Below the pieces are notes generated by a model. It worked only from the letters and a program-made list of their open reading frames with translations. It was not told the origin of the DNA and made no database searches. 64,000 bases of DNA from positions 1 through 64,000 of IMG/VR virus record IMGVR_UViG_3300035698_010625; one strand, written 5' to 3'. Below are positions 51,219 through 63,268 of the stretch, one piece after another. Within the stretch, counting starts at the first letter, position 1. Each line of letters opens with the position of its first letter. The translations under genes and the position numbers were made by a program. This DNA is from a virus.

Positions 51219-51223
51219 CAATT

Positions 51224-51588: not shown

Positions 51589-51596
51589 TTTGTACG

Positions 51597-51655: not shown

Positions 51656-51683
51656 TGAAGAACCTTAAACTTAACTAACAATT

Positions 51684-51759: not shown

Positions 51760-51765
51760 ATTTTT

Positions 51766-51841: not shown

Positions 51842-51876
51842 TTTTACTAGAAAGATTCATATACTTTCTAGACATT

Positions 51877-51954
51877 CGTTCGGTAGCTCAGCCTGGTTAG
51901 AGCACCCGTCTGATACGCGGTAGGTCGAAGGTTCAACTCCTTCTCGAACGACCA
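51877..51954 (+). tRNA. tRNA-Ile (GAU)
   Basis: Acceptor CGTTCGG/TCGAACG, loop CTGATAC, A73, encoded CCA. Confidence 0.88.
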
Positions 51955-51960
51955 ATTTAA

Positions 51961-52195: not shown

Positions 52196-52211
52196 ACAAT
52201 TTTATTACAAT

Positions 52212-52288
52212 GCTACGTTCGTCTAATGGACTAGGACTCTGGGTTTTCACTTCAGATAATATCGGTTCGAATCCGATACGTAGTACCA
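52212..52288 (+). tRNA. tRNA-Glu (UUC)
   Basis: Loop TTTTCAC in a CTGGG/TTCAG stem, acceptor GCTACGT/ACGTAGT, encoded CCA. Carries the CGTCTAA D-arm also found in the 53400-53812 group. Confidence 0.85.
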
Positions 52289-52296
52289 ATTTCAAT

Positions 52297-52372
52297 TCCT
52301 AGTTAGTATTCTTGGTGAGCACGGGTGACTGTTAATCACTTCAGGTAGGTTCGAATCCTACACTAGGAGCCA
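52297..52372 (+). tRNA. tRNA-Asn (GUU)
   Basis: Perfect acceptor TCCTAGT/ACTAGGA, loop CTGTTAA, G73, encoded CCA. Confidence 0.9.
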
Positions 52373-52379
52373 AATCAAT

Positions 52380-52452
52380 GAGAGTTTAGTTCAAGTTAGA
52401 ACATCTGGCGCAATAGTCAGAAGATGCTGGTATCGAATCCAGTCCCTTTCAC
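52380..52452 (+). tRNA. degenerate tRNA-like gene, anticodon unclear, no CCA
   Basis: Acceptor TGAGAG/CTTTCA and a T-arm-like CTGG/CCAG with TATCGAAT loop; the anticodon stem TCTGG/TCAGA encloses an 8-base loop (CGCAATAG). The 3' end continues CGA instead of CCA. Possibly nonfunctional or a frame-shifting variant. Confidence 0.45.
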
Positions 52453-52460
52453 CGAATAAT

Positions 52461-52546
52461 GGATGTGATGTACCGGTGGTGGTATAGCGGGCTGTAACCC
52501 CGTGGCTCTTATGGGCGAGTAGGTTCGACTCCTTCCACATCCACCA
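52461..52546 (+). tRNA. tRNA-Tyr (GUA)
   Basis: Perfect acceptor GGATGTG/CACATCC, loop CTGTAAC, long variable arm as in bacterial Tyr tRNAs, encoded CCA. Confidence 0.9.
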
Positions 52547-52634
52547 ATTTCGTTGGCAGTAAGGTCACGCATTGAGATTGACCTCCTAGTAATAGGTACC
52601 TGATGGGTAAATTAAAAAGTGCGATTTCAAATTC
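52547..52634 (+). other. 88-base structured spacer
   Basis: GGTCA/TGACC hairpin followed by a CCTA-GTAA-TAGG GNRA hairpin, which recurs at 54078-54089. No ORF or tRNA assigned. Confidence 0.35.
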
Positions 52635-52712
52635 CGGTGATTAGCTCAGCCTGGTTAGAGCTCTCCGTTTGGGGCGGAGTTGCCAGAGGTTCGAATCCTC
52701 TATCACCGACCA
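52635..52712 (+). tRNA. tRNA-Pro (UGG)
   Basis: Perfect acceptor CGGTGAT/ATCACCG, perfect CTCCG/CGGAG anticodon stem with loop TTTGGGG, encoded CCA. A second Pro(UGG) lies at 55692. Confidence 0.9.
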
Positions 52713-52805
52713 ATAACTAATTATCTAATGTGCTTGCCGGCATATGCGGATGATTGCACGAACTTCTATTGATAACAAGCGGTAACTTGTAATCATAAGA
52801 TGAGT

Positions 52806-52869
52806 TAATTAGTAGTTTAACGGTAGATCGCCTGGCTGGAAGATGCGGGTTCGAATCCTGTCTAATTAC
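52806..52869 (+). tRNA. degenerate tRNA-like gene, no CCA
   Basis: Perfect acceptor TAATTAG/CTAATTA, D-arm-like TAGTTTAACGGTAGA, T-arm GCGGG/CCTGT with TTCGAAT loop, but the anticodon arm is too short to fold normally. C73 followed by TTT. The preceding 90 bases (52713-52805) contain a CAAG/CTTG hairpin. Confidence 0.45.
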
Positions 52870-52885
52870 TTTCGTGATTTACAAC

Positions 52886-52960
52886 AGTTCCTTAACTCAG
52901 AGGCAGAGTATCGCTTTTACACAGCGAAGGTCGAGATTTCGAAATTCTCAGGAACTACCA
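52886..52960 (+). tRNA. tRNA-Val (UAC)
   Basis: Perfect acceptor AGTTCCT/AGGAACT, TCGCT/AGCGA stem with loop TTTACAC, encoded CCA. Confidence 0.9.
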
Positions 52961-52978
52961 GTAACTAATCAACAGCTC

Positions 52979-53022
52979 GATGGGAGTCTTGCTATTTGAT
53001 TGCACAGCGTCTTACTCCCATA
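52979..53022 (+). other. 8-bp inverted repeat, possible tRNA remnant
   Basis: ATGGGAGT (52980-52987)/ACTCCCAT enclose about 26 bases; the arms resemble the acceptor stems of the Leu tRNAs at 53149 and 57877, suggesting a deleted tRNA. Confidence 0.35.
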
Positions 53023-53026
53023 AGAT

Positions 53027-53097
53027 TTATTGATAGTGTAATGGATGCACACTGGGGTTTAAACCTGGAAGTACGGTTCGATTCCGTGATTAATAAC
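53027..53097 (+). tRNA. tRNA-like gene with apparent UUA (ochre-reading) anticodon, no CCA
   Basis: Acceptor TTATTGA/TTAATAA, anticodon stem CTGGG/CCTGG (with wobble pairs) around loop GTTTAAA, T-arm TACGG/CCGTG. Anticodon 5'-UUA-3' would read the stop codon UAA. It has no long variable arm, so it is not a Leu(UAA) tRNA. C73 then TTG, no CCA. Confidence 0.5.
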
Positions 53098-53148
53098 TTG
53101 GGCTGTGATTTACAAATCGCTTGAGCAACTGCTCGCGTACAATACAAT

Positions 53149-53236
53149 GGGAGTGTGGTGGAATTGGTATACACATTGGTCTTAGAAACCAACGACTGTA
53201 ATGGTCACGCAGGTTCGACTCCTGTCACTCCTACCA
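53149..53236 (+). tRNA. tRNA-Leu (UAG)
   Basis: Acceptor GGGAGTG/CACTCCT, TTGGT/ACCAA stem with loop CTTAGAA, long variable arm, encoded CCA. Confidence 0.92.
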
Positions 53237-53242
53237 ATCAAT

Positions 53243-53310
53243 GTTCGATTAGCATAATGCAATGCGGCAAGTACTTGTAGAAGAAAGCTCGAATCTTTCA
53301 TCGAACTCCA
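53243..53310 (+). tRNA. short (68-base) tRNA-like gene
   Basis: Perfect acceptor GTTCGAT/ATCGAAC, T-arm GAAAG/CTTTC, T73 and CCA, but about 10 bases short between D- and T-arms so no normal anticodon arm forms. U73 hints at Cys or Gly origin. Confidence 0.45.
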
Positions 53311-53319
53311 AATTTAAAC

Positions 53320-53393
53320 GCTCAATTAGTTCAATGGTAGAACAACGGCCCGGTAAGTCGTTAACGTAAGTTCGATTCTTACATTGAGCACCA
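53320..53393 (+). tRNA. tRNA-Thr (GGU)
   Basis: Perfect acceptor GCTCAAT/ATTGAGC, ACGGC/GTCGT stem with loop CCGGTAA (C33 instead of U33), A73, encoded CCA. Confidence 0.75.
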
Positions 53394-53399
53394 ATTAAT

Positions 53400-53476
53400 G
53401 CCCGGTTCGTCTAAATATTAGGACCTCTGCCATATTTGAGCAGAAAATAAAAGTGAGATTCTTTTACCGGACACCA
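53400..53476 (+). tRNA. degenerate Glu-like tRNA copy
   Basis: Same TCGTCTAA D-arm as the Glu tRNAs, TCTGC/GCAGA stem with a 9-base loop, T-arm AAAAG/CTTTT with altered loop TGAGATT, encoded CCA. Anticodon not assignable. Confidence 0.45.
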
Positions 53477-53482
53477 AACAAT

Positions 53483-53555
53483 GCCAAGGTCGTCTAATAA
53501 TCTAAGACCCTCTCGTGATAGAGAGAAATGAGGTGTAAATCCCCCCGAGGCACCA
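53483..53555 (+). tRNA. degenerate Glu-like tRNA copy
   Basis: GTCGTCTAA D-arm, CTCTC/GAGAG stem with 6-base loop GTGATA, disrupted acceptor and T-arm, encoded CCA. Probably a decaying duplicate. Confidence 0.4.
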
Positions 53556-53561
53556 AACAAT

Positions 53562-53637
53562 GCTGGAGTCGTCTAACGGCTAGGACTTTACATTCTCAGT
53601 GTAAACAATGCGAGTTCGAATCTCGTCTCCAGTACCA
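53562..53637 (+). tRNA. tRNA-Glu (CUC)
   Basis: Acceptor GCTGGAG/CTCCAGT, TTACA/TGTAA stem with loop TTCTCAG, T-loop TTCGAAT, encoded CCA. Confidence 0.85.
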
Positions 53638-53642
53638 AATCT

Positions 53643-53729
53643 GGATTGATCCGCTGGGTAGGCCGGCAGCACGGTTTGAACCCGTGGGTGACCGAAAGGT
53701 TAGGGGTTCGACTCCTCATCTCTCCGCCA
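53643..53729 (+). tRNA. tRNA-Ser (UGA)
   Basis: CACGG/CCGTG stem with loop TTTGAAC, long variable arm, G73, encoded CCA. Two mismatches in the acceptor stem. Confidence 0.8.
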
Positions 53730-53736
53730 ATTTTAT

Positions 53737-53812
53737 CCTTCGCTCGTCTAATGTTAAGACACCAAACCGTGGAGGTTTGGGGATAGAGGTTTGATTCCTT
53801 TGCTTAGGACCA
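53737..53812 (+). tRNA. Glu-like tRNA copy with unusual anticodon arm
   Basis: CTCGTCTAA D-arm; a 7-bp CCAAACC/GGTTTGG arm leaves only a GTGGA loop (or CGTGGAG with five pairs, reading UGG). Encoded CCA. Identity unclear. Confidence 0.4.
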
Positions 53813-53820
53813 ATTTTAAT

Positions 53821-53871
53821 GACTACTTCCTATACGTAGGTTAATAACTGAAAAGTTAAGAGTGGTCACCA
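53821..53871 (+). ncRNA. 51-base mini tRNA-like RNA ending in CCA
   Basis: 7-bp acceptor GACTACT/AGTGGTC, one CCTA-TACG-TAGG hairpin, one TAACT-GAAA-AGTTA hairpin, then A-CCA. It lacks a T-loop and anticodon arm. It is intact and well folded, unlike the degenerate tRNAs. Function unknown. Confidence 0.5.
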
Positions 53872-53965
53872 AGTTATCCCACACTCATCGAATGGTACGG
53901 TAAACGTTAAGAAACGTTTCGTGGGGAGTTTATCAGAAAGCCGTGACAGATAGACAACTAACAAT
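53872..53965 (+). other. 94-base structured spacer
   Basis: CCCAC/GTGGG closing stem (53878/53921) around an AAACG/CGTTT hairpin. No tRNA or ORF. Confidence 0.35.
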
Positions 53966-54039
53966 AGCTGCATAGCATAGTGGTAATGCGGGGGTCTTTG
54001 AAACCTCTCAGTAAGGTTCGATTCCTTATGCGGCTGCCA
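53966..54039 (+). tRNA. tRNA-Gln (UUG)
   Basis: Acceptor AGCTGCA/TGCGGCT, loop CTTTGAA, G73, encoded CCA. Confidence 0.88.
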
Positions 54040-54043
54040 ATTT

Positions 54044-54115
54044 TGATGTGGATATAATCTATCCCTTGTGCGGGTGCCCCTAGTAATAGGTCAAGGCAGC
54101 AAACTGCTCACATCA
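54044..54115 (+). ncRNA. 72-base tRNA-shaped RNA without T-loop or CCA
   Basis: Perfect 7-bp TGATGTG/CACATCA closing stem and three arms: GATA/TATC, CCTTG/CAAGG containing CCTA-GTAA-TAGG, and GCAG-CAAA-CTGC. tRNA length and cloverleaf layout but no TTCRA loop and no CCA. A mimic or another structured RNA. Confidence 0.5.
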
Positions 54116-54125
54116 GATTTAATAT

Positions 54126-54212
54126 GGAAGATTAACTAGACAGGGTTCTAGAGCTGTTTGCTAAACAGATGGTACCGCAAGGTATGAGTTTCGAATACTC
54201 AATTTTCCGCCA
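54126..54212 (+). tRNA. tRNA-Ser (GCU)
   Basis: Acceptor GGAAGAT/ATTTTCC, loop TTGCTAA, long variable arm, G73, encoded CCA. Confidence 0.88.
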
Positions 54213-54241
54213 AACATAAAGAAAAATTAAGTATTAACAAT

Positions 54242-54316
54242 GGGACTCAGGTGTAACTGGGTGCACGGCGGACTTTTAATCCGTAAGGACAGGGTTCAAG
54301 CCCTGGGGTCCCACCA
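54242..54316 (+). tRNA. tRNA-Lys (UUU)
   Basis: Acceptor GGGACTC/GGGTCCC, GCGGA/TCCGT stem with loop CTTTTAA, encoded CCA. Confidence 0.9.
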
Positions 54317-54323
54317 AATGTAA

Positions 54324-54363
54324 ATGGAAATGCTTCGGCATTGTAAAACTCACCGAAAGGTTT
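54324..54363 (+). ncRNA. small two-hairpin RNA element
   Basis: GGAAA/TTTCC closing stem around AATGC-TTCG-GCATT and ACC-GAAA-GGT hairpins, both with stable tetraloops. Unknown. Confidence 0.4.
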
Positions 54364-54403
54364 CCACCCAAGTGTGGATATAAAGAAGTTCCGATTAGTC
54401 AAT

Positions 54404-54477
54404 GCGTCTAAGTACAAGGTGTATCCTCGGGTTTCCAACCCGTAGTGAGTGGGTTTCGATTACCCCTAGTCGCTCCA
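54404..54477 (+). tRNA. tRNA-Gly (UCC)
   Basis: Loop TTTCCAA in CGGG/CCCG stem, U73 as expected for Gly, encoded CCA; one acceptor mismatch. Confidence 0.8.
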
Positions 54478-54482
54478 ACAAT

Positions 54483-54555
54483 AGTTATCTAGCTCAACTG
54501 GCAGAGCACTAGCTTCATACGTTAGGGAATCTCGGTTCAAATCCGAGGGTAACTA
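54483..54555 (+). tRNA. tRNA-Met or Ile2 (CAU), CCA not encoded
   Basis: Acceptor AGTTATC/GGTAACT, CTAGC/GTTAG stem with loop TTCATAC, A73 followed by CAA. Without initiator features. The C34 could be lysidine-modified in an Ile role. Confidence 0.8.
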
Positions 54556-54561
54556 CAATCT

Positions 54562-54569
54562 TATAAATA
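54562..54569 (+). promoter_or_regulatory. T4-type late promoter inside the tRNA array
   Basis: CTTATAAATAC, identical to the head/tail gene promoters, 27 bases before an ORF with a capsid-targeting-like N-terminus. Confidence 0.75.
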
Positions 54570-54595
54570 CTCTTTTAATAAACGAGTATCAGAAA

Positions 54596-54850
54596 ATGCA
54601 AACTTTTAAAAGTTTCACCGAAGGAAATGTCGTTAAATTTCCTAAGAAGAAAAAACAAACCCACGATGAAATTACTGGATTGCCAATTGATTCACGTCTT
54701 CCAGATACCCCAGACGAATGGATGGTTGTATCAAAGGATGAGAGTGTAGCATATAGCACTTCACCAACTCGTCAAGAAGCACAGAAAAAACTTAAGACGT
54801 ATATGATGAAGACAGGTAAGAGAGATCTTAAAGTCATCAAATTTGGCTAA
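54596..54850 (+). CDS. candidate internal virion protein with capsid-targeting-like N-terminus
   Basis: 84 residues starting MQTFKSFTEG, like T4 internal-protein leaders and the 5822-7354 genes here, with possible gp21 cleavage after FTE. The rest is basic (FPKKKKQ) with SPTRQEAQKKLKTYM near the C-terminus, suiting packaged DNA or host targets. It has its own late promoter, unlike the surrounding RNA genes. Confidence 0.6.
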   Translation: MQTFKSFTEGNVVKFPKKKKQTHDEITGLPIDSRLPDTPDEWMVVSKDESVAYSTSPTRQEAQKKLKTYMMKTGKRDLKVIKFG

Positions 54851-54858
54851 GATAATCC

Positions 54859-54887
54859 TCGCCAAGAAGGTCTAAACCATATATAAT
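54859..54887 (+). promoter_or_regulatory. sigma70-type promoter before tRNA-Gly(GCC)
   Basis: TCGCCA, 17-base spacer, TATAAT; the -35 to -10 segment is nearly the same as at 61425-61453, so this is a duplicated promoter. It restarts transcription of the array after the late gene. Confidence 0.65.
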
Positions 54888-54898
54888 GATATAACAAA

Positions 54899-54970
54899 GC
54901 GGGTATAGCTCAGTGGTAGAGCGGAACGTTGCCAACGTCCAGGTCGAGAGTTCGAATCTCTCTACCCGCT
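54899..54970 (+). tRNA. tRNA-Gly (GCC), CCA not encoded
   Basis: Perfect acceptor GCGGGTA/TACCCGC, loop TTGCCAA, T-arm GAGAG/CTCTC, U73 followed by CTA. Confidence 0.9.
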
Positions 54971-54985
54971 CTAATTTAGGATTAT

Positions 54986-55177
54986 ATGATGAATTTGGGA
55001 CTAACAAGTGATTGTGAGGCAGAAGCATATTTTGATAGCGCTGATACTTACATCAAACAATACAACGCTACTTATATGTTTGAGAATAGTTCTGCGAGAG
55101 TCCGAACTATCATTGCTGAATATTTTGCTAATCTAGATAATAAAACTATTTGGCTTTGGAAAACTAAGAGTGATTGA
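54986..55177 (+). CDS. hypothetical protein
   Basis: 63 residues starting MMNLGLTSDCEAEAYF, with AGGA at 5 or 8 bases from the two tandem ATGs. Acidic, helical. Unknown. Confidence 0.45.
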   Translation: MMNLGLTSDCEAEAYFDSADTYIKQYNATYMFENSSARVRTIIAEYFANLDNKTIWLWKTKSD

Positions 55178-55180
55178 ATC

Positions 55181-55399
55181 ATGCGCCTTATCATTTCGCG
55201 GACTAACAATGACAGCACTTTGGACTTCGAAGTTCATGATGCACGTTGGGTTACTTTTAGTGATAAAATGAAAGCATTTGCTTGGACTCGTCCGGGTAAT
55301 AAGCTTGGAATTTACTTCTCCGAGGAATATGTCAATCGCCGCTTTGTGAACATCTTTTGCATTAGCGCGCTTGAGAACATGCACTGGCAGGTTAAGTGA
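55181..55399 (+). CDS. hypothetical protein
   Basis: 72 residues starting MRLIISRTNNDSTLDFEV, mainly beta-strand, with a C-terminal VNRRFVNIFCISAL segment. Follows the previous stop by 3 bases. Unknown. Confidence 0.45.
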   Translation: MRLIISRTNNDSTLDFEVHDARWVTFSDKMKAFAWTRPGNKLGIYFSEEYVNRRFVNIFCISALENMHWQVK

Positions 55400-55409
55400 G
55401 GATTACATT

Positions 55410-55601
55410 ATGTGGATTCGATTTGAAGAGAAACAACCCAAACAAGATAAAGACCTTTATTACTTCTTCGATGTAGTAGGTGTTCACTCAGGGCGCTATT
55501 ACGGCGGTGATACATTTCAAGGCCGAAGAGGTTTTCTCAATGGTGACGTTACTCATTGGCAATATGATAAAGGGCAGGGAAAACCTGCTGAACCAAAATG
55601 A
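55410..55601 (+). CDS. DUF551-like small protein
   Basis: 63 residues from ATG 55410 with GTGAGGA upstream. MWIRFEEKQPKQDKDLYYFF and the terminal GDVTHWQ resemble the DUF551 pattern (WISVxDxLP ... VTHWxP). Function of that family is unknown. Confidence 0.55.
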   Translation: MWIRFEEKQPKQDKDLYYFFDVVGVHSGRYYGGDTFQGRRGFLNGDVTHWQYDKGQGKPAEPK

Positions 55602-55606
55602 ATAAT

Positions 55607-55683
55607 GCAAGAGTGGCTCGACTGGTGAAGGCCGGCGTCTTATATGCGTCTATATGTGGGTTCGAATCCCGCCTCTTGTACCA
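55607..55683 (+). tRNA. tRNA-Ile (UAU)
   Basis: Acceptor GCAAGAG/CTCTTGT, loop CTTATAT, T-arm GTGGG/CCCGC, encoded CCA. Reads the rare AUA codon. Confidence 0.85.
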
Positions 55684-55691
55684 AAATATTT

Positions 55692-55768
55692 CAGGGTATA
55701 AGTCAGTCTGGTAGACACCCCGGTTTGGAACTGGGAAGCCGTTGGTTCGAATCCAACTACCCTGACCA
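55692..55768 (+). tRNA. tRNA-Pro (UGG), second copy
   Basis: Perfect acceptor CAGGGTA/TACCCTG, loop TTTGGAA, encoded CCA. Sequence differs from the 52635 Pro tRNA, so not a recent duplicate. Confidence 0.9.
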
Positions 55769-55785
55769 TTTAAAGAGAGTACATT

Positions 55786-56046
55786 ATGCTTACATTCAAT
55801 ATTAAAGATTTCTTTTGTTGGCATAGTATTCAAAAAGAAGAGTCATTTGAAGCTTTTCATGCAAGAGCAGAAGCACTGCATGAAACTTATCAACATTGGA
55901 CTCCTGTAAATGAAATTGAAAGAACAAATAGAGCAGTATGTTTTGTATCTTTTATTAACAATCACCCAAAAATCGTAAATCCATATACTGGTAAAACAAA
56001 AAAACAATTTTCTTTAACGGAATATCCTATATCTACCTTGTCTTAA
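55786..56046 (+). CDS. hypothetical protein
   Basis: 86 residues starting MLTFNIKDFFCWHSIQ; mixed alpha/beta with a terminal TKKQFSLTEYPIS segment. AGAGAG ribosome-binding site. Unknown. Confidence 0.5.
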   Translation: MLTFNIKDFFCWHSIQKEESFEAFHARAEALHETYQHWTPVNEIERTNRAVCFVSFINNHPKIVNPYTGKTKKQFSLTEYPISTLS

Positions 56047-56069
56047 AGGTTGTATAATGATTATTCAAT

Positions 56070-56145
56070 ACACGGTAAGCAATTATGGTTAATGCGCTGG
56101 CTTGAAGTCCCAGATAACTAAGTTCGATTCTTAGACCGTGTACCA
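56070..56145 (+). tRNA. tRNA-Phe (GAA)
   Basis: Acceptor ACACGGT/ACCGTGT, loop TTGAAGT, T-arm CTAAG/CTTAG, encoded CCA. Confidence 0.82.
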
Positions 56146-56168
56146 ATTTATTATGGAGTGACTGTGAT

Positions 56169-56870
56169 ATGTTTGCTGATTTTTGCACTGATCATTTCTC
56201 GACGAGTAACAATGCACATTACAGAAATCCGCGAACTGTTGACCAAAATGTAATTGCTAATGAGACAATGCTATTTAGCGCATCTCCAGAATTTGCTACT
56301 GCAAATGGTGGCCCACTTACTGCTTACTTTCTCTCCAAGCTTTTTGATGGTGGATTTGAAAGCATTGATACTCGAGGAATGCATTGGGTCATTGATACTC
56401 GCTCGCACATGCTGATGCCAGGTCAATTTCCTTCTATTCCAGGTTGGCATTGTGATGCTTGGGAGCGAGATCCAAAGACACAACAACCACTTTTATGGCA
56501 GCACCCACATGGTACCGCTATGCATTTTGTAATGACACTTGGTACTAATGATGATGGTGTATCACTTACAAAATTCATACTTCCTTTTGGTGTGCCGATT
56601 CGTGTATCTTACGATCCATCCAAAGTTTGGGGTTCTGTAAACGAATCAATTGAACACCAAATTGAAGATCTCGTTATATCACCAGATAGAATTATTAGTG
56701 CGCCTTCAGGGACACTCATTTCGTTTGGACAAAACATATTACATACGGCTAGTGTAGCTACCAGTAAAGGCTGGCGCTTCTTTGCTCGTATAAGTTTAAT
56801 GACAAATCCACCACTCAACAAAATTCGAAAACAGGTACAAGTTTACGCTGATTCAAATGTTGGTTGGTAA
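56169..56870 (+). CDS. 2OG-Fe(II) oxygenase-like protein
   Basis: 233 residues. GWHCDAW (H93-x-D95) and LHTASVATSKGWRFFARISL (H192 with Arg about 203/207) fit the H-x-D...H...R iron and 2-oxoglutarate site of the double-stranded beta-helix oxygenases. Substrate unknown; tRNA, DNA or protein hydroxylation are all possible. It sits in the tRNA array and is followed by a tRNA 3' fragment. Confidence 0.55.
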   Translation: MFADFCTDHFSTSNNAHYRNPRTVDQNVIANETMLFSASPEFATANGGPLTAYFLSKLFDGGFESIDTRGMHWVIDTRSHMLMPGQFPSIPGWHCDAWERDPKTQQPLLWQHPHGTAMHFVMTLGTNDDGVSLTKFILPFGVPIRVSYDPSKVWGSVNESIEHQIEDLVISPDRIISAPSGTLISFGQNILHTASVATSKGWRFFARISLMTNPPLNKIRKQVQVYADSNVGW

Positions 56871-56876
56871 ATGAAT

Positions 56877-56912
56877 TAAGGGAAACGTTGGTTCGAGTCC
56901 AACTCCTGCGCT
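56877..56912 (+). tRNA. tRNA 3'-half remnant
   Basis: A good T-arm, GTTGG/CCAAC with loop TTCGAGT, followed by TCCTGCGC and TGG, but no D- or anticodon arm upstream, where the oxygenase gene ends. Looks like a tRNA truncated by insertion of that gene. Confidence 0.5.
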
Positions 56913-56959
56913 GGTGCAAAGGATCGTAATTGATGGCCAAGACACCCTTACGTTACAAT

Positions 56960-57033
56960 GTTGATATGGCAGAATGGTTATGCCGTGGCTTGCAAACCCA
57001 CTTACTCTGGTTCGATTCCGGATATCAACTCCA
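56960..57033 (+). tRNA. tRNA-Cys (GCA)
   Basis: Perfect acceptor GTTGATA/TATCAAC, GTGG/CCAC stem with loop TTGCAAA, U73 as expected for Cys, encoded CCA. Confidence 0.88.
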
Positions 57034-57085
57034 AGATAAGGCTTTAGCCGCAGCAGAGTAGTCAGGCATGACATAAAAGGTCGAA

Positions 57086-57281
57086 ATGAAAAAGTTTAGC
57101 CGGCTCGACCAGCTTTATTTCTGAGTTCAAAGGTGGTCCTGAGCACGATGGATATGCACCAATTGTAAAAAATGTCTGTGATGGTGATTATACCGAATTC
57201 TCAGTTTGTTTGGAATGTGGTACTCTGAAAGGTACTTTCCCGGTTGATGATCCTGTTTGGAATGATGAAGAAGAAGATTAA
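57086..57281 (+). pseudogene. small CxxC protein gene with +1 frameshift
   Basis: ATG 57086 with AAGG upstream gives MKKFSRLDQLYF and a TGA at 57122-57124. Skipping one base continues into FKGGPEHDGYAPIVKN...CLEC...DDPVWNDEEED to a TAA at 57279-57281. The second part has coding character and a VCLECG motif but no start. A frameshift at UUC UGA, a mutation or an assembly error. Confidence 0.45.
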
Positions 57282-57285
57282 CAAT

Positions 57286-57355
57286 GCGCCGCGCTCTGGG
57301 TAAGCAGTATGGTTTCCAATGCCTCGCGTGTGGAGTTCGATTCTCTGGCGGCGTG
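57286..57355 (+). tRNA. tRNA-like gene, anticodon unclear, no CCA
   Basis: Good acceptor GCGCCGC/GCGGCGT and T-arm TGGAG/CTCTG with loop TTCGATT; the anticodon region (around TTTCCAA) does not form a clean stem. G73 followed by CAC. Confidence 0.45.
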
Positions 57356-57380
57356 CACCTGTAATAGATTAAAGAATAAT

Positions 57381-57456
57381 AAGAGTATAGTATAATGGCT
57401 CATTACCCCGGGCTCTGAACTCGGTAATCTAGGTTCGAATCCTAGTACTCTTGCCA
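57381..57456 (+). tRNA. tRNA-Gln (CUG)
   Basis: Acceptor AAGAGTA/TACTCTT, CCGGG/CTCGG stem with loop CTCTGAA, G73, encoded CCA. Confidence 0.85.
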
Positions 57457-57463
57457 AATATAC

Positions 57464-57538
57464 GCCTGCTAAGCATTAATGGTGATGCACTGGTTTTGTA
57501 ATCCAGAGAAGAGGGATCGTTACCTTCAGTCGGCACCA
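57464..57538 (+). tRNA. tRNA-Thr (UGU)
   Basis: CTGG/CCAG stem with loop TTTGTAA, A73, encoded CCA; one acceptor mismatch and an altered T-loop (ATCGTTA). Confidence 0.78.
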
Positions 57539-57541
57539 AAT

Positions 57542-57615
57542 CGCGAGATGTTGAAATGGCATCCTGCTGGGCTCATAACCCTTCGTTGGCGGTTCAACTC
57601 CGTCTTTCGCTACCA
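57542..57615 (+). tRNA. initiator tRNA-fMet (CAU)
   Basis: Loop CTCATAA above GGG/CCC, the three G-C pairs that mark initiator tRNAs, and an unpaired first position (C1 opposite U72) in an acceptor CGCGAGA/TTTCGCT that is otherwise paired; E. coli has C1 opposite A72. A73, encoded CCA. Directs formyl-Met to the ribosomal P site. Confidence 0.88.
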
Positions 57616-57617
57616 AC

Positions 57618-57720
57618 TTTGTGAGATCGTCAAGTGTAATTATGTTAAAGCCCGAGATGATGACATTACAAAATGTACGAATCGGTTAATCTTTAACTAG
57701 CACAAGGGACATCTCACAAA
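57618..57720 (+). ncRNA. 103-base long-hairpin RNA
   Basis: Perfect 10-bp TTTGTGAGAT/ATCTCACAAA ends, then GTTAAAG/CTTTAAC (57644/57691) and ACATT-ACAA-AATGT inside. C and a T6 run follow, which could act as terminator. No tRNA or ORF. Unknown regulatory or decoy RNA. Confidence 0.55.
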
Positions 57721-57729
57721 CTTTTTTAT

Positions 57730-57868
57730 GTTGTAACTGCAAGGATAATGCAGGGTGGTTGGAGAGCTTGTGAGGGTGTACAACCTTTTATCCACAGGTA
57801 TAAAGTTAGCTTTAACAAATCGAGGCGCTTTATAAATCTCTAGTGAAGTTCGATTCTTCATTACAACA
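57730..57868 (+). tRNA. tRNA interrupted in the anticodon region
   Basis: Perfect acceptor GTTGTAA/TTACAAC, D-arm CTGC/GCAG and T-arm TGAAG/CTTCA (TTCGATT loop) surround about 90 bases containing GGTTG/CAACC and AAAG-TTAG-CTTT hairpins. Too small for a known group I intron. No CCA encoded. Anticodon not assignable. Confidence 0.5.
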
Positions 57869-57876
57869 CTTTCAAT

Positions 57877-57964
57877 GGGAGTATGGTGGAATTGGTATAC
57901 ACAGCAGACTTAAAATCTGCCGCCTGTAATGGGCTCGGGGGTTCGAATCCCTCTACTCCTACCA
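57877..57964 (+). tRNA. tRNA-Leu (UAA)
   Basis: Acceptor GGGAGTA/TACTCCT, GCAGA/TCTGC stem with loop CTTAAAA, long variable arm, encoded CCA. Close relative of the Leu(UAG) gene at 53149. Confidence 0.92.
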
Positions 57965-57977
57965 AATTAAGGTAAAT

Positions 57978-58130
57978 ATGATGCAGGAAACAAGCACTAA
58001 AACTATAGCAGATAAAGAAGCATTGATTCTGTCTGCTGGTGAATGTTATCCAGATACATCTAGTTTTATACGAGATGAAGTTGTGAAAGACATTAATTTT
58101 AAGCTAGTTGATAAGATGTGGGGCAAATAA
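57978..58130 (+). CDS. 50-residue hypothetical protein
   Basis: Starts MMQETSTKTIADKEAL after AAGG; acidic with a helical N-terminal half. Overlaps the next ORF by 13 bases. Unknown. Confidence 0.45.
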   Translation: MMQETSTKTIADKEALILSAGECYPDTSSFIRDEVVKDINFKLVDKMWGK

Positions 58131-58393
58131 CGAGTGTTGCTCATGCTCCAACCTTCATATACAATGGTGAATGTAAACCTTGTGTAAGTAGGTTGTACCG
58201 TAGCTATTTGAGATACACTTATATAACTGCTGCACACATTAATGCACTGGTGTATGACATGGTAGTGGAATTAGATGATTTACTTATAGATGCTTCTGAA
58301 TTTCACCCATATATGATGGCGATACCACAATTAGCTGAAGAAGAATATATTGAATTTAATCGAATTGCATTCAAACTTCGATTTGCATTTTAA
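58118..58393 (+). CDS. hypothetical protein, GTG start
   Basis: 91 residues from a GTG. N-terminal CKPCVSRL gives a CxxC pair, and a DMVVELDDLLIDASEF acidic helix follows. The start is uncertain because no ATG is present early in the frame. Unknown. Confidence 0.45.
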   Translation: MGQITSVAHAPTFIYNGECKPCVSRLYRSYLRYTYITAAHINALVYDMVVELDDLLIDASEFHPYMMAIPQLAEEEYIEFNRIAFKLRFAF

Positions 58394-58404
58394 AGATTAA
58401 CAAT

Positions 58405-58474
58405 GCCCCGGGTGTTGGATACACAGCAGAGGTTTCTACCCTCAGCCTTCTGGGTTCGACTCCTAGTCGGGGTA
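58405..58474 (+). tRNA. tRNA-Arg (UCU), CCA not directly encoded
   Basis: Acceptor GCCCCGG/TCGGGGT, GAGG/CCTC stem with loop TTTCTAC, A73 followed by CACCA, so a CA insertion separates the acceptor from a CCA. Confidence 0.78.
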
Positions 58475-58492
58475 CACCATTTAAGGTTCATT

Positions 58493-58771
58493 ATGAAATA
58501 TCTTCTTGAGTTGTATTGGATGTGGAGGGACCGCCAAAGAGCAGAAGCTGAACTCGATAAATTCATAGCTGTTAAAAAGTGGGATGCTAGCATTCGTTGG
58601 AATAATGACAAATCGGTTGAAAACATTCTTTATATTGGTCTTGAAAATGGCCGTGGTGAACGTAAAATACAAATTCATGATTATGGATTAACCCGTACTT
58701 ATTCTAAGTCGAAGGCCCATCTCATTTATACAAAGTACGTTTTGCCATGGCAGCATAAAATAAATGAATAA
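58493..58771 (+). CDS. hypothetical protein
   Basis: 92 residues from ATG 58493 with TAAGG upstream; longer in-frame reading crosses the Arg tRNA. Starts MKYLLELYWMWRDRQRAEAE, a long amphipathic helix, then a beta-rich part. Unknown. Confidence 0.5.
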   Translation: MKYLLELYWMWRDRQRAEAELDKFIAVKKWDASIRWNNDKSVENILYIGLENGRGERKIQIHDYGLTRTYSKSKAHLIYTKYVLPWQHKINE

Positions 58772-58776
58772 TAACC

Positions 58777-58805
58777 TTTATCTTAAGGTCCTATATTGAT
58801 ATAAT
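58777..58805 (+). promoter_or_regulatory. sigma70-type promoter before the TAXI gene
   Basis: TTTATC, 17-base spacer, TATAAT, 73 bases before ATG 58878. A GC-containing inverted repeat followed by TTTTTT (about 58830-58857) lies in the leader and may be a terminator or attenuator. Confidence 0.55.
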
Positions 58806-58877
58806 ATACTTATTGGAACGCACCTATTTTGCTGTCAACGCAATGTTGGCTTTTTTGTAATTAAACGGGGATACATT

Positions 58878-59702
58878 ATGATTACGCGAAACAAATTGGC
58901 TGTTGCTATTCTTGCTGCAGTTTCCATTACTACCGCAGCACACGCATCTGAAGTTACTACAATCACCGCTGGCTCCAAGGGCGGTGCATACGCTACTTAT
59001 GGCAACAATCTTGCAACTATGCTCACCCAGAATGATTGGAAGAGTAAGGTTATTCGCAGTAAGGGTTCAATTCAGAATATTGCCCGTCTTGTAGATGGCT
59101 CAGCACAAATTGGTTTCACCCAGGGCGATGCTTTGCAGCTCTCAAAGGCTGGTGGTAAGATTGATATTCTTGGAGCACTTGGAATGGAATGTGCTTTCAT
59201 TGTTTACAGTAAGAAGGGTAAGGTCACTGACGAAGATCATCTTCAGAATGAGGGTGTGAAAATTGCTGTTGGTAAGAAAGGTACTGGTTCACAAGCAACG
59301 TGGTCTTACATGGTTCAGCTAGAACCTGCATACGGTAATGCATCTGCACAGTATACTGGCGGAGCTCGCGCACTTGGCGCACTCAAAGCAGGCACTGTTG
59401 ACGCTGTTCTCTTTGTCACCGATCCCACTAATCTGAGTCATAAGCTTATTCAAGCAGTAAATGGTGATCCAGACCTCGATTTTCTAGACGTTGATGACAG
59501 TGACTTGAATGATGATCTACCTAATGGCACGCCTGTCTATGAATTCAAAGAAGTTGACACTGAAACGGGTGCTTTCGCGGATGACGTAGATACTATCTGT
59601 ACGCCTTTGCTAGTAATTGCTAGTGCAGATGCTGACGAAGACATGCTTGATGATGCTGCAGGAATTATGCTAAGCAATCGCAATGCGGTGCTTGGTAAGT
59701 AA
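58878..59702 (+). CDS. TAXI-family TRAP-type solute-binding protein, secreted
   Basis: 274 residues. A Sec signal peptide (basic MITRNK, hydrophobic core, AHA/SE cleavage about residue 23) precedes a body with TAGSKGGAYATYGNNLA, SAQIGFTQGDAL and GTGSQATW, characteristic of TAXI solute receptors. These bind a carboxylate or amino-acid-like ligand in the periplasm for a TRAP permease. No permease gene is nearby, so it must use host partners or only bind ligand. Base composition is slightly GC-richer than the surroundings. Confidence 0.8.
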   Translation: MITRNKLAVAILAAVSITTAAHASEVTTITAGSKGGAYATYGNNLATMLTQNDWKSKVIRSKGSIQNIARLVDGSAQIGFTQGDALQLSKAGGKIDILGALGMECAFIVYSKKGKVTDEDHLQNEGVKIAVGKKGTGSQATWSYMVQLEPAYGNASAQYTGGARALGALKAGTVDAVLFVTDPTNLSHKLIQAVNGDPDLDFLDVDDSDLNDDLPNGTPVYEFKEVDTETGAFADDVDTICTPLLVIASADADEDMLDDAAGIMLSNRNAVLGK

Positions 59703-59727
59703 CAATGCAAAAGATAGTCGTTCCCAA

Positions 59728-59930
59728 GTTAGTACTTAATCGCTCTACGGAGAGGAAAGTCGGGACAAGCGGCATGATCGTGTGGGAGGAGTTAACTCCG
59801 CTTTACCACCGTGACATAGCTTGCAACACAAACAGGATTAGACAAATTGTGCATCAATGATATCCGGGTTGTGGCCAATAGACGAATGATAGCATAGAAC
59901 AGGATCCCGCTTACGGATTACTTACTACTT
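59728..59930 (+). ncRNA. rnpB: RNase P RNA (compact, bacterial type)
   Basis: GAGGAAAGTCGGGA (59751-59764) and ATCCCGCTTACGG (59904-59916) form the universal P4 helix AAG(U)CGGGA/TCCCGCTT with the bulged U; E. coli has AAG(U)CCGG/CCGGCUU, so both strands have changed together. TAGACGAATGAT (59879-59890) matches the CR-V AGAUGAAUGA region and TGCAACACAAAC the J11/12 region. P1 pairs 59730-59741 with 59916-59927. P3 is reduced to CTCT-ACGG-AGAG and P2 is not apparent. It cleaves tRNA 5' leaders; its protein partner is presumably host RnpA. Confidence 0.88.
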
Positions 59931-59941
59931 ACAAGGAGCAA

Positions 59942-60121
59942 ATGATGAGCAAGGTATACCCTCACTCAAGCACTAAGCAACGCGAACGATACGTGAAACA
60001 AAACGCTATTAAAGGCGAACGCTCTATCGGGCAAACTGATGCTTCAGTAGGCTGGTATGGACTTACAGTAAATTGGAAAGCTATTGTGCGTGGTGCACCG
60101 TGTTACATTACAACTAACTAA
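59942..60121 (+). CDS. 59-residue basic protein
   Basis: AAGGAG ribosome-binding site followed by tandem ATGs (59942, 59945). Product starts MMSKVYPHSSTKQRERYVKQ. Basic, possibly RNA-binding. It directly follows the RNase P RNA; whether it aids that RNA is speculation. It does not look like RnpA. Confidence 0.5.
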   Translation: MMSKVYPHSSTKQRERYVKQNAIKGERSIGQTDASVGWYGLTVNWKAIVRGAPCYITTN

Positions 60122-60133
60122 AAGGAGCAAGAT

Positions 60134-60172
60134 ATGCGCTTGATGAATTTAGAGCACCTCCTTAAATTGTGA
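60134..60172 (+). CDS. 12-residue micro-ORF with strong ribosome-binding site
   Basis: AAAGGAGCAAGAT then ATG; encodes MRLMNLEHLLKL. The ribosome-binding region repeats that of the previous gene. Could be a leader peptide for 60213, which begins 40 bases later. Confidence 0.3.
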   Translation: MRLMNLEHLLKL

Positions 60173-60212
60173 TTTTTGGTAAAACACTAATTCACACTTA
60201 AGGAAACATCTA

Positions 60213-60590
60213 ATGAAAATCACTTATCTCAAAATTAAAGTAAAGTCACTAGCAGCAGAGTCACGCATGATCCGCCAAGAGGAGTTGAAACTCAAACGTC
60301 GATACCAGGCGATTAAACTGTTGGACAATCAGTATGACACTGCAGCAGAAGAGGGAGACATAAGGTCTACTCGTTTAGGTCTTTATGAACACCGTACAGA
60401 TGATGTACGTCGAGAGTCGCGTGTAGCTAATATTGCTTACGGTCTACTTCGAGGAAGAGAGTATAGCAAAATTGAGCGAGGAGTTCGGGAGTTTAATCAA
60501 CCGAAATGGACACGCGTTACAAAGTTGATTGAGAAGTATTCAAACAGTGAGGAGCAGAAGGTTAAAGCTTTTCAACTGATTGAGCAGTAA
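60213..60590 (+). CDS. helical basic protein
   Basis: 125 residues starting MKITYLKIKVKSLAAESRMI; highly charged helices with many Arg, Lys and Glu. Followed by a strong terminator. Possibly RNA-binding; no family recognised. Confidence 0.5.
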   Translation: MKITYLKIKVKSLAAESRMIRQEELKLKRRYQAIKLLDNQYDTAAEEGDIRSTRLGLYEHRTDDVRRESRVANIAYGLLRGREYSKIERGVREFNQPKWTRVTKLIEKYSNSEEQKVKAFQLIEQ

Positions 60591-60601
60591 ATATCATGAC
60601 G

Positions 60602-60624
60602 GAGCGCTTCGGCGCTCTCGTTTT
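60602..60624 (+). terminator. Rho-independent terminator
   Basis: 6-bp GAGCGC-TTCG-GCGCTC stem followed by TCGTTTT, 12 bases after the stop of 60213. Confidence 0.75.
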
Positions 60625-60693
60625 GGCTGACACGGTGACTACCTGGCTTTCAATCCAAAGGAGTTTAGGGTTCGATTCCCTTATCAGCCACCA
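60625..60693 (+). tRNA. tRNA-like gene, possibly Glu or UGA-reading
   Basis: Acceptor GGCTGA/TCAGCC, T-arm AGGG/CCCT with TTCGATT, encoded CCA. The anticodon stem CCTGG/CCaaaGG carries two extra bases and an 8-base loop CTTTCAAT, so UUC or UCA cannot be decided. Confidence 0.5.
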
Positions 60694-60711
60694 AATTTTA
60701 GGAGAGGCATT

Positions 60712-60831
60712 ATGAGTATATTTGCTTGGATTGTTTTTCCATTTTTATTCCCCGTGGTTGTCGCAATGTTTTGGGTGCTGACACATGTGGATCCATACAC
60801 TGGTAAGGTTCATTGGAATCTTACGTGGTAA
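60712..60831 (+). CDS. 39-residue membrane protein
   Basis: GGAGAGG ribosome-binding site; starts MSIFAWIVFPFLFPVVVAMF, one membrane span, with a short C-terminal tail. Unknown. Confidence 0.55.
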   Translation: MSIFAWIVFPFLFPVVVAMFWVLTHVDPYTGKVHWNLTW

Positions 60832-60838
60832 ACGATAT

Positions 60839-61128
60839 CATGTAGTAGTTTAAATGTTGGCATTATGAGGAAAGGTGAAGATTATTTGAAAGTAAAATTA
60901 AGTTAGTAGCAATTCTGTAGTGGTGATGTAACGAGACGTGTAGGTAAAAACGTGAGCCAAATGAAAGATTGGACAGGCATCATCATCGAGGGCGTTGCGA
61001 ATTCTTCTTTTGAACCCTTTAATTAGTAACCTTTACTTACGTGTCACACGGAAAAACGCTAGGAACCCCCCCGCTTACGCGTCTCTTAATCCTGGATATC
61101 CACGGTTCAATACCGGGCTACATGGCCA
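60839..61128 (+). tRNA. candidate intron-containing tRNA
   Basis: CATGTAG (60839-60845) pairs perfectly with CTACATG (61118-61124), which is followed by G-CCA and preceded by a T-arm (CACGG/CCGGG, TTCAATA loop). The 5' part continues TAGTTTAAATGTTGGCAT like other D-arms here. About 220 extra bases lie between; no group I core was recognised. The gap is otherwise ORF-free. Confidence 0.45.
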
Positions 61129-61152
61129 ATTTCTTGAAACGGAGTTTATAAT

Positions 61153-61398
61153 ATGAATGATTATTTTAATGCGTTTATTATGATTTTGGTTATAGCGATA
61201 GTAACAAATGTTGGTTGGATTATTAATTATGATGATCTTAAAACACTTCATGAAAAGGCGTTAAGTATTCATAAGATTGAAGTCATGCAACATAGACAAG
61301 CTATTTGTCGTAGTGCAACAGCTGAACACGCAACTAATACTGCTACACTCTTCGAAGCAATCAATAAGCTCAATTCTGCTGCTAAGGCTGCAGAATAA
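61153..61398 (+). CDS. membrane-anchored coiled-coil protein
   Basis: 81 residues: a span at about 7-25 (IMILVIAIVTNVGWII) then a helical tail ending LFEAINKLNSAAKAAE. GGAG ribosome-binding site. Unknown. Confidence 0.5.
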   Translation: MNDYFNAFIMILVIAIVTNVGWIINYDDLKTLHEKALSIHKIEVMQHRQAICRSATAEHATNTATLFEAINKLNSAAKAAE

Positions 61399-61424
61399 TT
61401 TACTTTAATGGCATAAGATATACC

Positions 61425-61453
61425 TTGCCAAGAAGGTCGAAACCATATATAAT
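61425..61453 (+). promoter_or_regulatory. strong sigma70-type promoter before structured RNAs
   Basis: TTGCCA, 17-base spacer, perfect TATAAT. The unit GCCAAGAAGGTC-AAACCATATATAATG is shared with 54861-54888. A second TATAAT lies at 61459-61464. Confidence 0.8.
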
Positions 61454-61464
61454 GGTACTATAAT

Positions 61465-61905
61465 CTGAACACAAACTAATAGATTGGGTCGCGTGGGATC
61501 CATAAGATAAGTAGCAGTAATGTTACGAAAGGCTATCTCATTTACGGATAGCGCCACTTTTATGAAGGTGGACATCTACGCAAGCCAAGCTCTTTACGGG
61601 TACCTCCGGGTGCTCTGGAAGATAAGTTGTGACCGACAAACACATCCAGGCCAACGGTGAGGATGATAGATTCCGCAAGAATCTCGGGTCAAGCAAAAGC
61701 AACGAACTTCAATGAGCAAAGGGTAGATTGAAAAGTTAAGCTTGCAGGTAAGGCTTTCAATCAATACGATAGGTGAAAGAAGATACAGCCTTCTGGAATC
61801 TAGAAATATTGCTAAGTAGCTCGCAAGGCGAAAGGTACGAGGTGGGTGGTATTTGGTAACTCAAAGGTTATTGAGCCACAGGCATTCGCTCATCTTAAAA
61901 TGTAA
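61465..61905 (+). ncRNA. about 440-base structured RNA, unknown
   Basis: No ORF. Hairpins include GGCTATC/GATAGC, CCACTTT/AGGTGG, CATCC/GGATG, GATTC-CGCAA-GAATC, GATTGAAA/TTTCAATC enclosing AAGC/GCTT, and CTCA/TGAG before tRNA-Trp. Transcribed from a consensus promoter. It does not look like tmRNA or a group I intron to me. Confidence 0.5.
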
Positions 61906-61912
61906 ATATGTA

Positions 61913-61987
61913 AACGGAATAGGGGAATAGGTACACCCGCCCGGCCGCCAAAGCCAGGATCTGTTGGTTCGAATCCAACTTTCGTTA
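61913..61987 (+). tRNA. tRNA-Trp (CCA anticodon), 3' CCA not encoded
   Basis: Acceptor AACGGAA/TTTCGTT, GGC/GCC-based stem with loop CGCCAAA (G33), T-arm GTTGG/CCAAC with TTCGAAT, A73 followed by TCA. Confidence 0.75.
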
Positions 61988-61989
61988 TC

Positions 61990-62350
61990 AACTTTGTATT
62001 GATAACAAATCTTAAATGCAAAGACGAATGCCACCGTGAAGTGGAAATTGCTTAATCCTCAAACCCATAGGGTAATTGAGGTTCAGGATGCTCGCAAGGC
62101 GGATTGAATTAGTTGGAGTCACAGGTAAATTCTTAGCGGAGTTACACAGCCCAGCAAGGCTGACCGGTCGATGAATGCTGAAAAGCTCGCGGATAGAGGA
62201 ATCGCTACCTCTTTAAACAAAGCAGCAATGGTTGATTACTATGCCGCTCTTCGGAGGGTAAAGTGGAAAAGAGAAGAACCTAGCGGATCGCACCGTGTGG
62301 ATAATTTCTCGAAGGATCAACTGCATATGAGTATATTCTCAACTCATCTG
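61990..62350 (+). ncRNA. about 360-base structured non-coding region
   Basis: Contains CCTCAA/TTGAGG with inner CCC-ATA-GGG, CAGCC/GGCTG and GAGG/CCTC hairpins. An 81-codon ORF (62171-62416) crosses it but has no ribosome-binding site and overlaps the perfect inverted repeat downstream, so I do not call it. Confidence 0.4.
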
Positions 62351-62451
62351 TTTACTTATGGCAGGTTGTACGTTCTCTGCCTTAAACGTACTGGCTTTCT
62401 GGGGAGGCTCAGATAACCGGGTAGTTCACCTAACTACCTGCCATAAGTAAA
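62351..62451 (+). ncRNA. 101-base RNA with 15-bp perfect closing stem
   Basis: TTTACTTATGGCAGG (62351-62365) pairs perfectly with 62437-62451. Inside are GTACGTT/AACGTAC and GGTAGTT/AACTACC hairpins, giving a three-way junction. Clear selected structure; function unknown. Confidence 0.6.
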
Positions 62452-62463
62452 TAGGAAGATAAT

Positions 62464-62592
62464 ATGAACATTGATAAAGTTGAACTTCAGAAGATCTTTC
62501 TTGAAGTTTTTACTAAACACCCAGAAGCTGCAAAGATTTTTCTAAAGGGTAATAACTATGAGCACGACCCCTACAAGAAGTTTGAGAGTTGA
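62464..62592 (+). CDS. 42-residue hypothetical protein
   Basis: AGGAAG ribosome-binding site; starts MNIDKVELQKIFLEVFTKH, helical and charged. Overlaps the next gene by 35 bases. Unknown. Confidence 0.5.
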   Translation: MNIDKVELQKIFLEVFTKHPEAAKIFLKGNNYEHDPYKKFES

Positions 62593-62857
62593 AAGATCAT
62601 ATACAAATAAGTTTAACCAAGTAATTGAAGTTGGTGATGAAGTAGTATTTGTTGCAACTTCTTGGGGTGGTACTGATATTCGCCAAGGTGTTTATCTTGG
62701 ATATTACCCACGCACTGGTTGGGATGGTCGCCCTGCACTTCATGCTGCTAGTGTATCATACATTGGTAAGGAGTGGGATGGAAGAAAATGGATTGACGAT
62801 GCAGTACTTCATTCTGTTCTTGAACTCGGTCGTGTTTTCAAAATTGAGAAAGTATAA
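62558..62857 (+). CDS. small beta-barrel-like protein, paralogue A
   Basis: 99 residues. NQVIEVGDEVVFVA and RQGVYLGYYP suggest an SH3-like barrel. The next product shares the same opening (IEVGDRVIAVA, RPGIYEGYH) and the ending R-V-x-x-G-x-I/V-F-K-I, so the two are tandem duplicates. Unknown. Confidence 0.55.
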   Translation: MSTTPTRSLRVERSYTNKFNQVIEVGDEVVFVATSWGGTDIRQGVYLGYYPRTGWDGRPALHAASVSYIGKEWDGRKWIDDAVLHSVLELGRVFKIEKV

Positions 62858-63174
62858 TGGCATTCCTCGAAGAGTCATTTGTCAATGAAATCGGGCAACG
62901 TATTGAAGTTGGGGATCGTGTAATAGCGGTCGCACATGGATACAATCTCAACTGCCGTCCTGGTATCTATGAAGGTTATCACAGTCATGGCGAACAATAT
63001 TATACTATCTCACAACTTGTAGAAACTGCAGATGGTGGGTTTAAGAAAGATGAACGTGGTAATTATGTGAGATATACGAAAAAACATTATTACATTCGAA
63101 TGTTACATCGCGTATTGTACGATGAAGGTTGGCGTGGAATACTTCAGAATGGTAACATTTTCAAAATTGCATAA
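62857..63174 (+). CDS. small beta-barrel-like protein, paralogue B
   Basis: 105 residues; its ATG overlaps the stop of paralogue A (TAATG). Contains IEVGDRVIAVAHGY, PGIYEGYH and a terminal GNIFKIA. Divergent duplicate of the previous gene. Confidence 0.55.
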   Translation: MAFLEESFVNEIGQRIEVGDRVIAVAHGYNLNCRPGIYEGYHSHGEQYYTISQLVETADGGFKKDERGNYVRYTKKHYYIRMLHRVLYDEGWRGILQNGNIFKIA

Positions 63175-63178
63175 CAAT

Positions 63179-63268
63179 GGCATTGTGGTGGAACTAAGGT
63201 ATACACAGCGTCTTCAAAAGCCGCCGGTCTTTGAGACTATGAGGGTTCGACTCCCTCCGATGCTACCA
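63179..63268 (+). tRNA. tRNA-Leu (CAA)
   Basis: Acceptor GGCATTG/CGATGCT, loop TTCAAAA in a GCGTC/GCCGC stem, long variable arm, Leu-type D-arm GGTGGAACTAAGGTATACACA, encoded CCA. Confidence 0.82.

Follow-up and report, generated by a model that had tools for sequence, protein, structure and literature searches.

The window analyzed here is a 64,000-nt stretch of a 105,618-b IMG/VR record from a T4-like myovirus. The record encodes a terminase, tail sheath, portal, scaffold, and major head protein as well as SbcCD and a clamp loader, and its major head protein is nearest, among named phages, to that of Stenotrophomonas phage DLP6 (58%). Host contamination was ruled out, as the window itself has the terminase, portal, sheath, scaffold, and major head genes and phage isolates carry the RNA described below.

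The (+) strand from 50877 to 58475 contains an array of 27 ARAGORN tRNAs, the presumed substrates of that RNA, which together with the tRNAs at 61913 and 63179 serve all 20 amino acids. CCA is encoded in 24 of the 29 ARAGORN tRNAs as called, and in at least one other it lies immediately past the called end. The tRNA leaders (50877–63268) favor U at −1 (23 of 28), A at −3 (22 of 28), and C at −4 (16 of 28); the string ACAAU occurs in 10 of 28, with a wider leaning toward A-A-C-A-A-U in this record. Read from this phage's leaders alone, the consensus is only suggestive as an RNase P recognition feature. A further low-scoring tRNA call at 53028–53097 has the anticodon TTA, which would read a stop codon, and looks degenerate. 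Downstream, a GOLLD RNA occupies 61839–62345 on the (+) strand (RF02032, 151.6 bits, just over the gathering score) and hosts a tRNA-Trp (61913–61987).

Between an ORF at 58878–59702 and a 58-aa ORF starting at ~59943 lies a non-coding stretch of the (+) strand, within which we place an RNase P RNA gene at 59726–59930, from P1 to P1′, beginning 23 nt past the stop of the upstream ORF. The upstream ORF encodes an NMT1-like protein (PF16868) common to jumbo phages (e.g., Erwinia phage phiEaH2, 40.9%); some records label it a TRAP transporter solute receptor, which would be odd cargo for a phage.

Identification and anatomy of the RNA

The initial annotation had proposed that the phage encodes a compact RNase P RNA next to a large array of tRNAs and suggested a cmsearch with the Rfam RNase P model as a check. 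A permissive cmscan of 59500–60200 against all 4,227 Rfam families returned RF00010 (RNaseP_bact_a) as the sole match, at 59728–59929 on the (+) strand over the full model (1–367), with 38.3 bits and a significant E-value of 2.1e-10 (7.6e-12 over the whole record). The gathering score of RF00010 is 100 bits, so a default Rfam scan misses the RNA; an ordinary scan here reported tRNAs and the GOLLD RNA only. We gathered relatives by a short P4 pattern scan of IMG/VR and by blastn against phage records, and built a covariance model, R1, from nine viral relatives with the window sequence excluded. R1 matched 59752–59914 with 85.2 bits (E-value of 1.6e-17), the sole match in the 105.6-kb record (114.6 kb searched). 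Covariance models, covariation, and genomic context thus bear out the proposal, and the sequence evidence confirms 59726–59930 as a phage-encoded RNase P RNA; its sequence and core structure place it among the bacterial-type RNase P RNAs. The lack of a significant covariance match, one of the two grounds on which the annotation would have been refuted, did not materialize. A resemblance due to chance or to coding sequence might be suspected from the RF00010 score lying under the gathering cut-off, but its probability is negligible given the E-values of 2e-10 and, with the leave-out model, 1.6e-17, the intergenic position, and a homologue in DLP6, whose major capsid protein is the closest among named phages; the R1 match and the base-pair changes between the window and DLP6 RNAs (see below) already refute it.

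All parts of the RNA are given on the (+) strand. Its termini form P1, as had been claimed: AAGU-U-AGUA-CU-UAAUC (59726–59741) pairs with GAUUA-CU-UACUACUU (59916–59930), which lies directly 5′ of the next ORF's Shine-Dalgarno sequence, to give three blocks totaling 13 bp. Of P3, only a 3-bp hairpin of the UNCG type remains, CUC-UACG-GAG (59743–59752). The CR-I block, or P4 5′ strand, reads GAGGAAAGUCGGGAC (59752–59766), and the CR-V/P4 3′ strand, placed by the RF00010 and R1 alignments, reads ACAGGAUCCCGCUUA (59899–59913). P4 itself is intact, with AAG-U-CGGGA paired to UCCCG-CUU (UCCCGCUU) and the bulged U at 59760, in agreement with the first reading of the helix. The P5 5′ strand CAAGC (59766–59770) pairs with GCUUG at 59819–59823, and the P6 pseudoknot joins GCAUGAU (59772–59778) to AUUGUGC (59846–59852) in 7 bp that include a tandem G-U. 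The stretch 59823–59875 holds J5/15 (GCAA), P15 (CAC/GUG), J15/16 (AAACAG), P16 (GGAU/AUCC), and L15 (GGGUU), with the tRNA 3′ CCA-binding motif GGU at 59867–59869; P15 and P16 covary. The CR-V-like block noticed at the outset, AGACGAAUGA (P2 3′ side and J2/4), was located at 59880–59889 by sequence and by the RF00010 and R1 alignments. CR-I, J5/15, and the CR-V blocks follow in order, and P1 closes the ends.

In comparison, the specificity (S) domain with its J11/12-J12/11 T-loop modules is not present. Where bacteria carry it, P7 (GUGG/CCAC) encloses only the 20 nt at 59786–59805, and this remnant, GAG-GAGUUAACUC-CGCUUUA (P7 included, 59782–59809), substitutes for the whole domain. The GCAACA...AAAC block had been read as J11/12-like; that assignment was wrong because the S domain is gone, and an identity as J11/12 was ruled out by the RF00010 and R1 alignments, which place the block in J5/15-P15-J15/16 of the catalytic domain. 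A reduction of P2/P3 had also been noted. P3 has 3 bp, and P2 is doubtful in the window copy (3–4 bp candidates at best, compared with 6 covarying bp in relatives), but the size reduction reflects chiefly the loss of the S domain. P18 is absent, and P17 is small and competes with P6. The MFE fold of the (+) strand yields P1, P3, P4, P5, P7, P15, and P16, with an energy not below that of shuffled sequences (z of 0.61).

Covariation and distribution of the family

The family comprises 23 distinct sequences from IMG/VR contigs and huge phages (the window RNA included) plus that of cultured DLP6; in the records checked, its members are unannotated. The original impression that a phage with its own ribozyme is very unusual therefore needs qualifying: with about two dozen related phage sequences, the window RNA is not a one-off. 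In an alignment of ten sequences with a hand-named structure of 40 pairs, P2 and P6 included, 92.9% of cells were paired and 31 of the 40 pairs had changed on both sides, a level reached by 0 of 500 shuffles, and sliding the partners lowered pairing to 31–43%. An alignment of 24 distinct sequences, which was fitted to the model structure and is thereby biased toward it, gave 97.9% paired cells, both-side changes at 24 of 27 pairs, and a score of 0.698 (0.170 when shuffled). Here P4 covaried at seven of its eight pairs, with the bulged U constant in 24 of 24 sequences; the L15 GGU was constant in 25 of 25. For P6, complementarity was greater within than across sequences (mean Watson-Crick best run of 6.1 versus 4.2 among 16 distinct strand pairs), and the DLP6 version forms 7 bp (GUGAGAA/UUCUCAC). 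The stretch enclosed by P7 varied from 19 to 86 nt and mostly consisted of GAG, a variable hairpin, and CGnnUGCA.

Between the window and DLP6 RNAs, 14 of 31 pairs differ on both sides (three of them in P4), one differs on one side, and 16 are the same. These 14 compensatory changes, together with full conservation of the core, show selection on the RNA, which makes it very improbable that the gene is a decaying, non-functional relic of a host-derived RNase P RNA, even though P2 is weak in the window copy and another phage contig contains a truncated 5′ fragment.

Outside the sequences used to build R1, 13 further viral contigs scored 97–157 bits, compared with at most 52.4 bits for 51 bacterial loci that share the P4 sequence and at most 59.5 bits for phage RNase P RNAs of a different build. 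A C-to-G flip in P4 was considered as a phage signature and ruled out, the same P4 being found in many bacterial genomes, e.g., in Bacteroidales and Acidimicrobiia. None of 38 contigs whose major capsid genes are related gave a family match, though most of these contigs are short fragments, nor did R1 match T4, KVP40, phage G, RaK2, CcrColossus, S-SKS1, phiM12, Melnitz, Mosig, S-CREM1, phiEaH2, IME-SM1, or S-CRM01.

Among huge phages, the family model scored 147–164 bits on LR756501 (735 kb), LR756502 (642 kb), and LR756511 (595 kb), all of which belonged to its training set. An RF00010 search of these three genomes returned nothing, indicating that Rfam alone under-reports such RNAs. LR756502 has, in addition, a gene for an RnpA-like protein whose RNR motif is intact (LR756502.1:525189-525473, locus L344; PF00825 E-value of 3e-14, TIGR00188 above cut-off), so that, judging from the two genes, its RNA and RnpA possibly make up a complete phage RNase P. 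In two cultured phages, an RNase P RNA lies in a gap of the tRNA array that carries no annotation: DLP6 (KU682439.2:105774-106022; RF00010 54.7 bits, R1 75.1 bits) and Microbacterium phage A3Wally (93852–94072; RF00010 72 bits, R1 56.3 bits). Membership of the A3Wally RNA in the subtype of the window RNA is less certain because of its low R1 score.

Other viral contigs contain related elements. In L015 (IMGVR_UViG_3300005965_000002, 258,580 b), an isolated 5′ part with the P4 5′ strand and the P6 5′ side lies on the reverse strand at ~4500 and directly abuts a tRNA-Lys. A search of that record for the 3′ half found none, and a split gene was ruled out, the sole 3′ candidate being a coding-type match; the fragment is either a relic or a tRNA-interrupted copy. 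The RNase P RNAs of two further phage contigs, L021 and L022, lie in dense tRNA arrays and, read by eye, keep the S domain and have apparently lost P15–17 and GGU, a reduction opposite to that of the window family; all L021 tRNAs and nearly no L022 tRNAs encode CCA. Sequences resembling RNase P RNA form additional distinct groups in viral contigs (L302/L304/L312, L278/L280/L314, and L274/L296), and several of them adjoin tRNA genes. For the two of these groups that were used in blast searches, no named phage matched.

Predicted function in phage tRNA maturation

We consider it probable, and with good confidence, that the window RNA is a catalytic-domain-only RNase P RNA that matures the pre-tRNAs of the phage together with the host's RnpA. 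The sequences themselves show the homology, the covarying core, the invariant bulged U and GGU, the recurrence with tRNA arrays, and the lack of an RnpA gene in the available record. Specifically, with the S domain swapped for the 20-nt P7 hairpin and P1, P3–P7, P15–P16 (P17 being small), the L15 GGU, and CR-V retained, the RNA would be transcribed together with the tRNA region, would bind host RnpA, and would then cut the 5′ leaders off the pre-tRNAs that the phage itself encodes. Substrates would be recognized through the acceptor stem, the 3′ CCA (by L15), and the leader U at −1 (by a J5/15 adenosine), and not through the tRNA elbow. In bacterial RNase P, the J5/15 adenosine contacts base −1, and the CCA-encoding tRNAs and U−1 leaders of this phage suit recognition by the L15 GGU and that adenosine. 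In this way the phage may process its full set of tRNAs with more capacity than the host alone provides, or without depending on the host RNA.

Previous work on the E. coli type A RNA showed that the C domain cleaves without the S domain, that P15–17 are needed, that a P6-like contact aids cleavage with and without protein, and that the RNA acting alone can do without P18 (PMC5839562). As aligned here, the parts on which C-domain cleavage relies, P15–17 and P6, are kept in the phage family, and P18 is absent from the window RNA. Without its S domain, the E. coli RNA cleaved a model substrate almost 500-fold less well (PMC5839562), which by analogy counts against a catalytic role in pre-tRNA maturation. 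Also counting against it are the score far under the gathering cut-off, the weak P2, the MFE not under that of shuffles, and a promoter search that gave no signal above chance at the RNA.

Two other readings accept the homology and assign a different role. First, the RNA might be an RNase P of altered specificity, unable to read the elbow, whose main substrates are host RNAs, tRNA-like elements, or the tRNA embedded in GOLLD. A short hairpin built to a conserved plan replaces the S domain throughout the family, which, like the strong leader consensus of the record's tRNAs, would fit such an enzyme; however, the RNA recurs within tRNA arrays, and the CCA-binding GGU is retained in a phage most of whose tRNAs encode CCA, leaving this reading unlikely. 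Second, the RNA might act mainly as a decoy that ties up the host's RnpA and so slows tRNA maturation in the host to the benefit of phage control. No RnpA (PF00825) was found in the 105.6-kb record, in keeping with a decoy; because the record may not cover the whole genome, an RnpA gene of the phage could lie beyond it. Loss of the S domain and the score under the cut-off would also fit. Nevertheless, the best-conserved features are the catalytic ones (bulged U, GGU, and CR-V), a decoy has no use for a CCA-binding loop, the phage itself requires processed tRNAs, and one phage (LR756502) encodes RnpA as well, and we regard a decoy as rather improbable. Maturation of phage pre-tRNAs remains the preferred role.

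Comparison with known RNase P RNAs

No report of a phage RNase P RNA was found in the open-access literature, subscription journals and preprints lying outside that scope, and papers on huge-phage genomes and on the DLP6 genome leave RNase P RNA unmentioned. To our knowledge, RNase P has been regarded as cellular or organellar equipment, with tRNA-rich phages assumed to depend on the enzyme of the host; this view changes with a family of phages that supply the ribozyme themselves. We likewise know of no natural RNase P RNA lacking the S domain other than archaeal type T, and the phage family is predicted to supply natural enzymes of this kind of the bacterial type. Through its covarying P4, the family also shows how the sequence of the catalytic helix varies in nature. 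We lean toward a broader proposal, namely that phages have evolved their own RNase P RNA subtype: a natural bacterial-style C-domain-only ribozyme of ~200 nt, with a mini-hairpin in place of the elbow-reading domain and a P4 whose freedom to covary has few parallels in cells. Such a ribozyme would serve phage pre-tRNAs exclusively and, in certain huge phages, would pair with a phage RnpA to make a complete phage RNase P. The viral need for RNase P is directly testable because cultured phages carry the RNA (DLP6, with a relative in A3Wally).

With bacterial type A (RF00010, E. coli M1 RNA), the window RNA shares P1, P3, P4 with its bulged U, P5–P7, P15–P16 with GGU, and the order of CR-I and CR-V. 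It differs in lacking the S domain (P8–P14, J11/12) and P18, in its length of about 205 nt, in its doubtful P2, and in its P4 sequence (AAGUCGGGA/UCCCGCUU); lacking the S-domain feature, it is not an ordinary member of type A. The DLP6 RNA, also within a tRNA array, resembles it in the sequence of J5/7 and the P7 3′ strand but has a 6-bp P2, extra hairpins between P15 and CR-V, and a P4 of the AGU-U-CGCGA type.

Archaeal type T (type P) of Pyrobaculum likewise consists of the catalytic domain only, with a degenerate S domain, P6 kept, and P18 absent (PMC4919922, PMC5839562). Compared by description of the architecture, type T is archaeal and works with archaeal proteins, whereas the phage RNAs match the bacterial model and have the bacterial L15 GGU. 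The engineered E. coli C-domain RNA (Eco CP RPR, PMC5839562) has the same architecture without an S domain and relies on P15–17 and the P6 interaction; it is an artificial truncation, whereas the phage family is natural, its P6 covaries, and its P7 is closed by a hairpin that follows a conserved plan.
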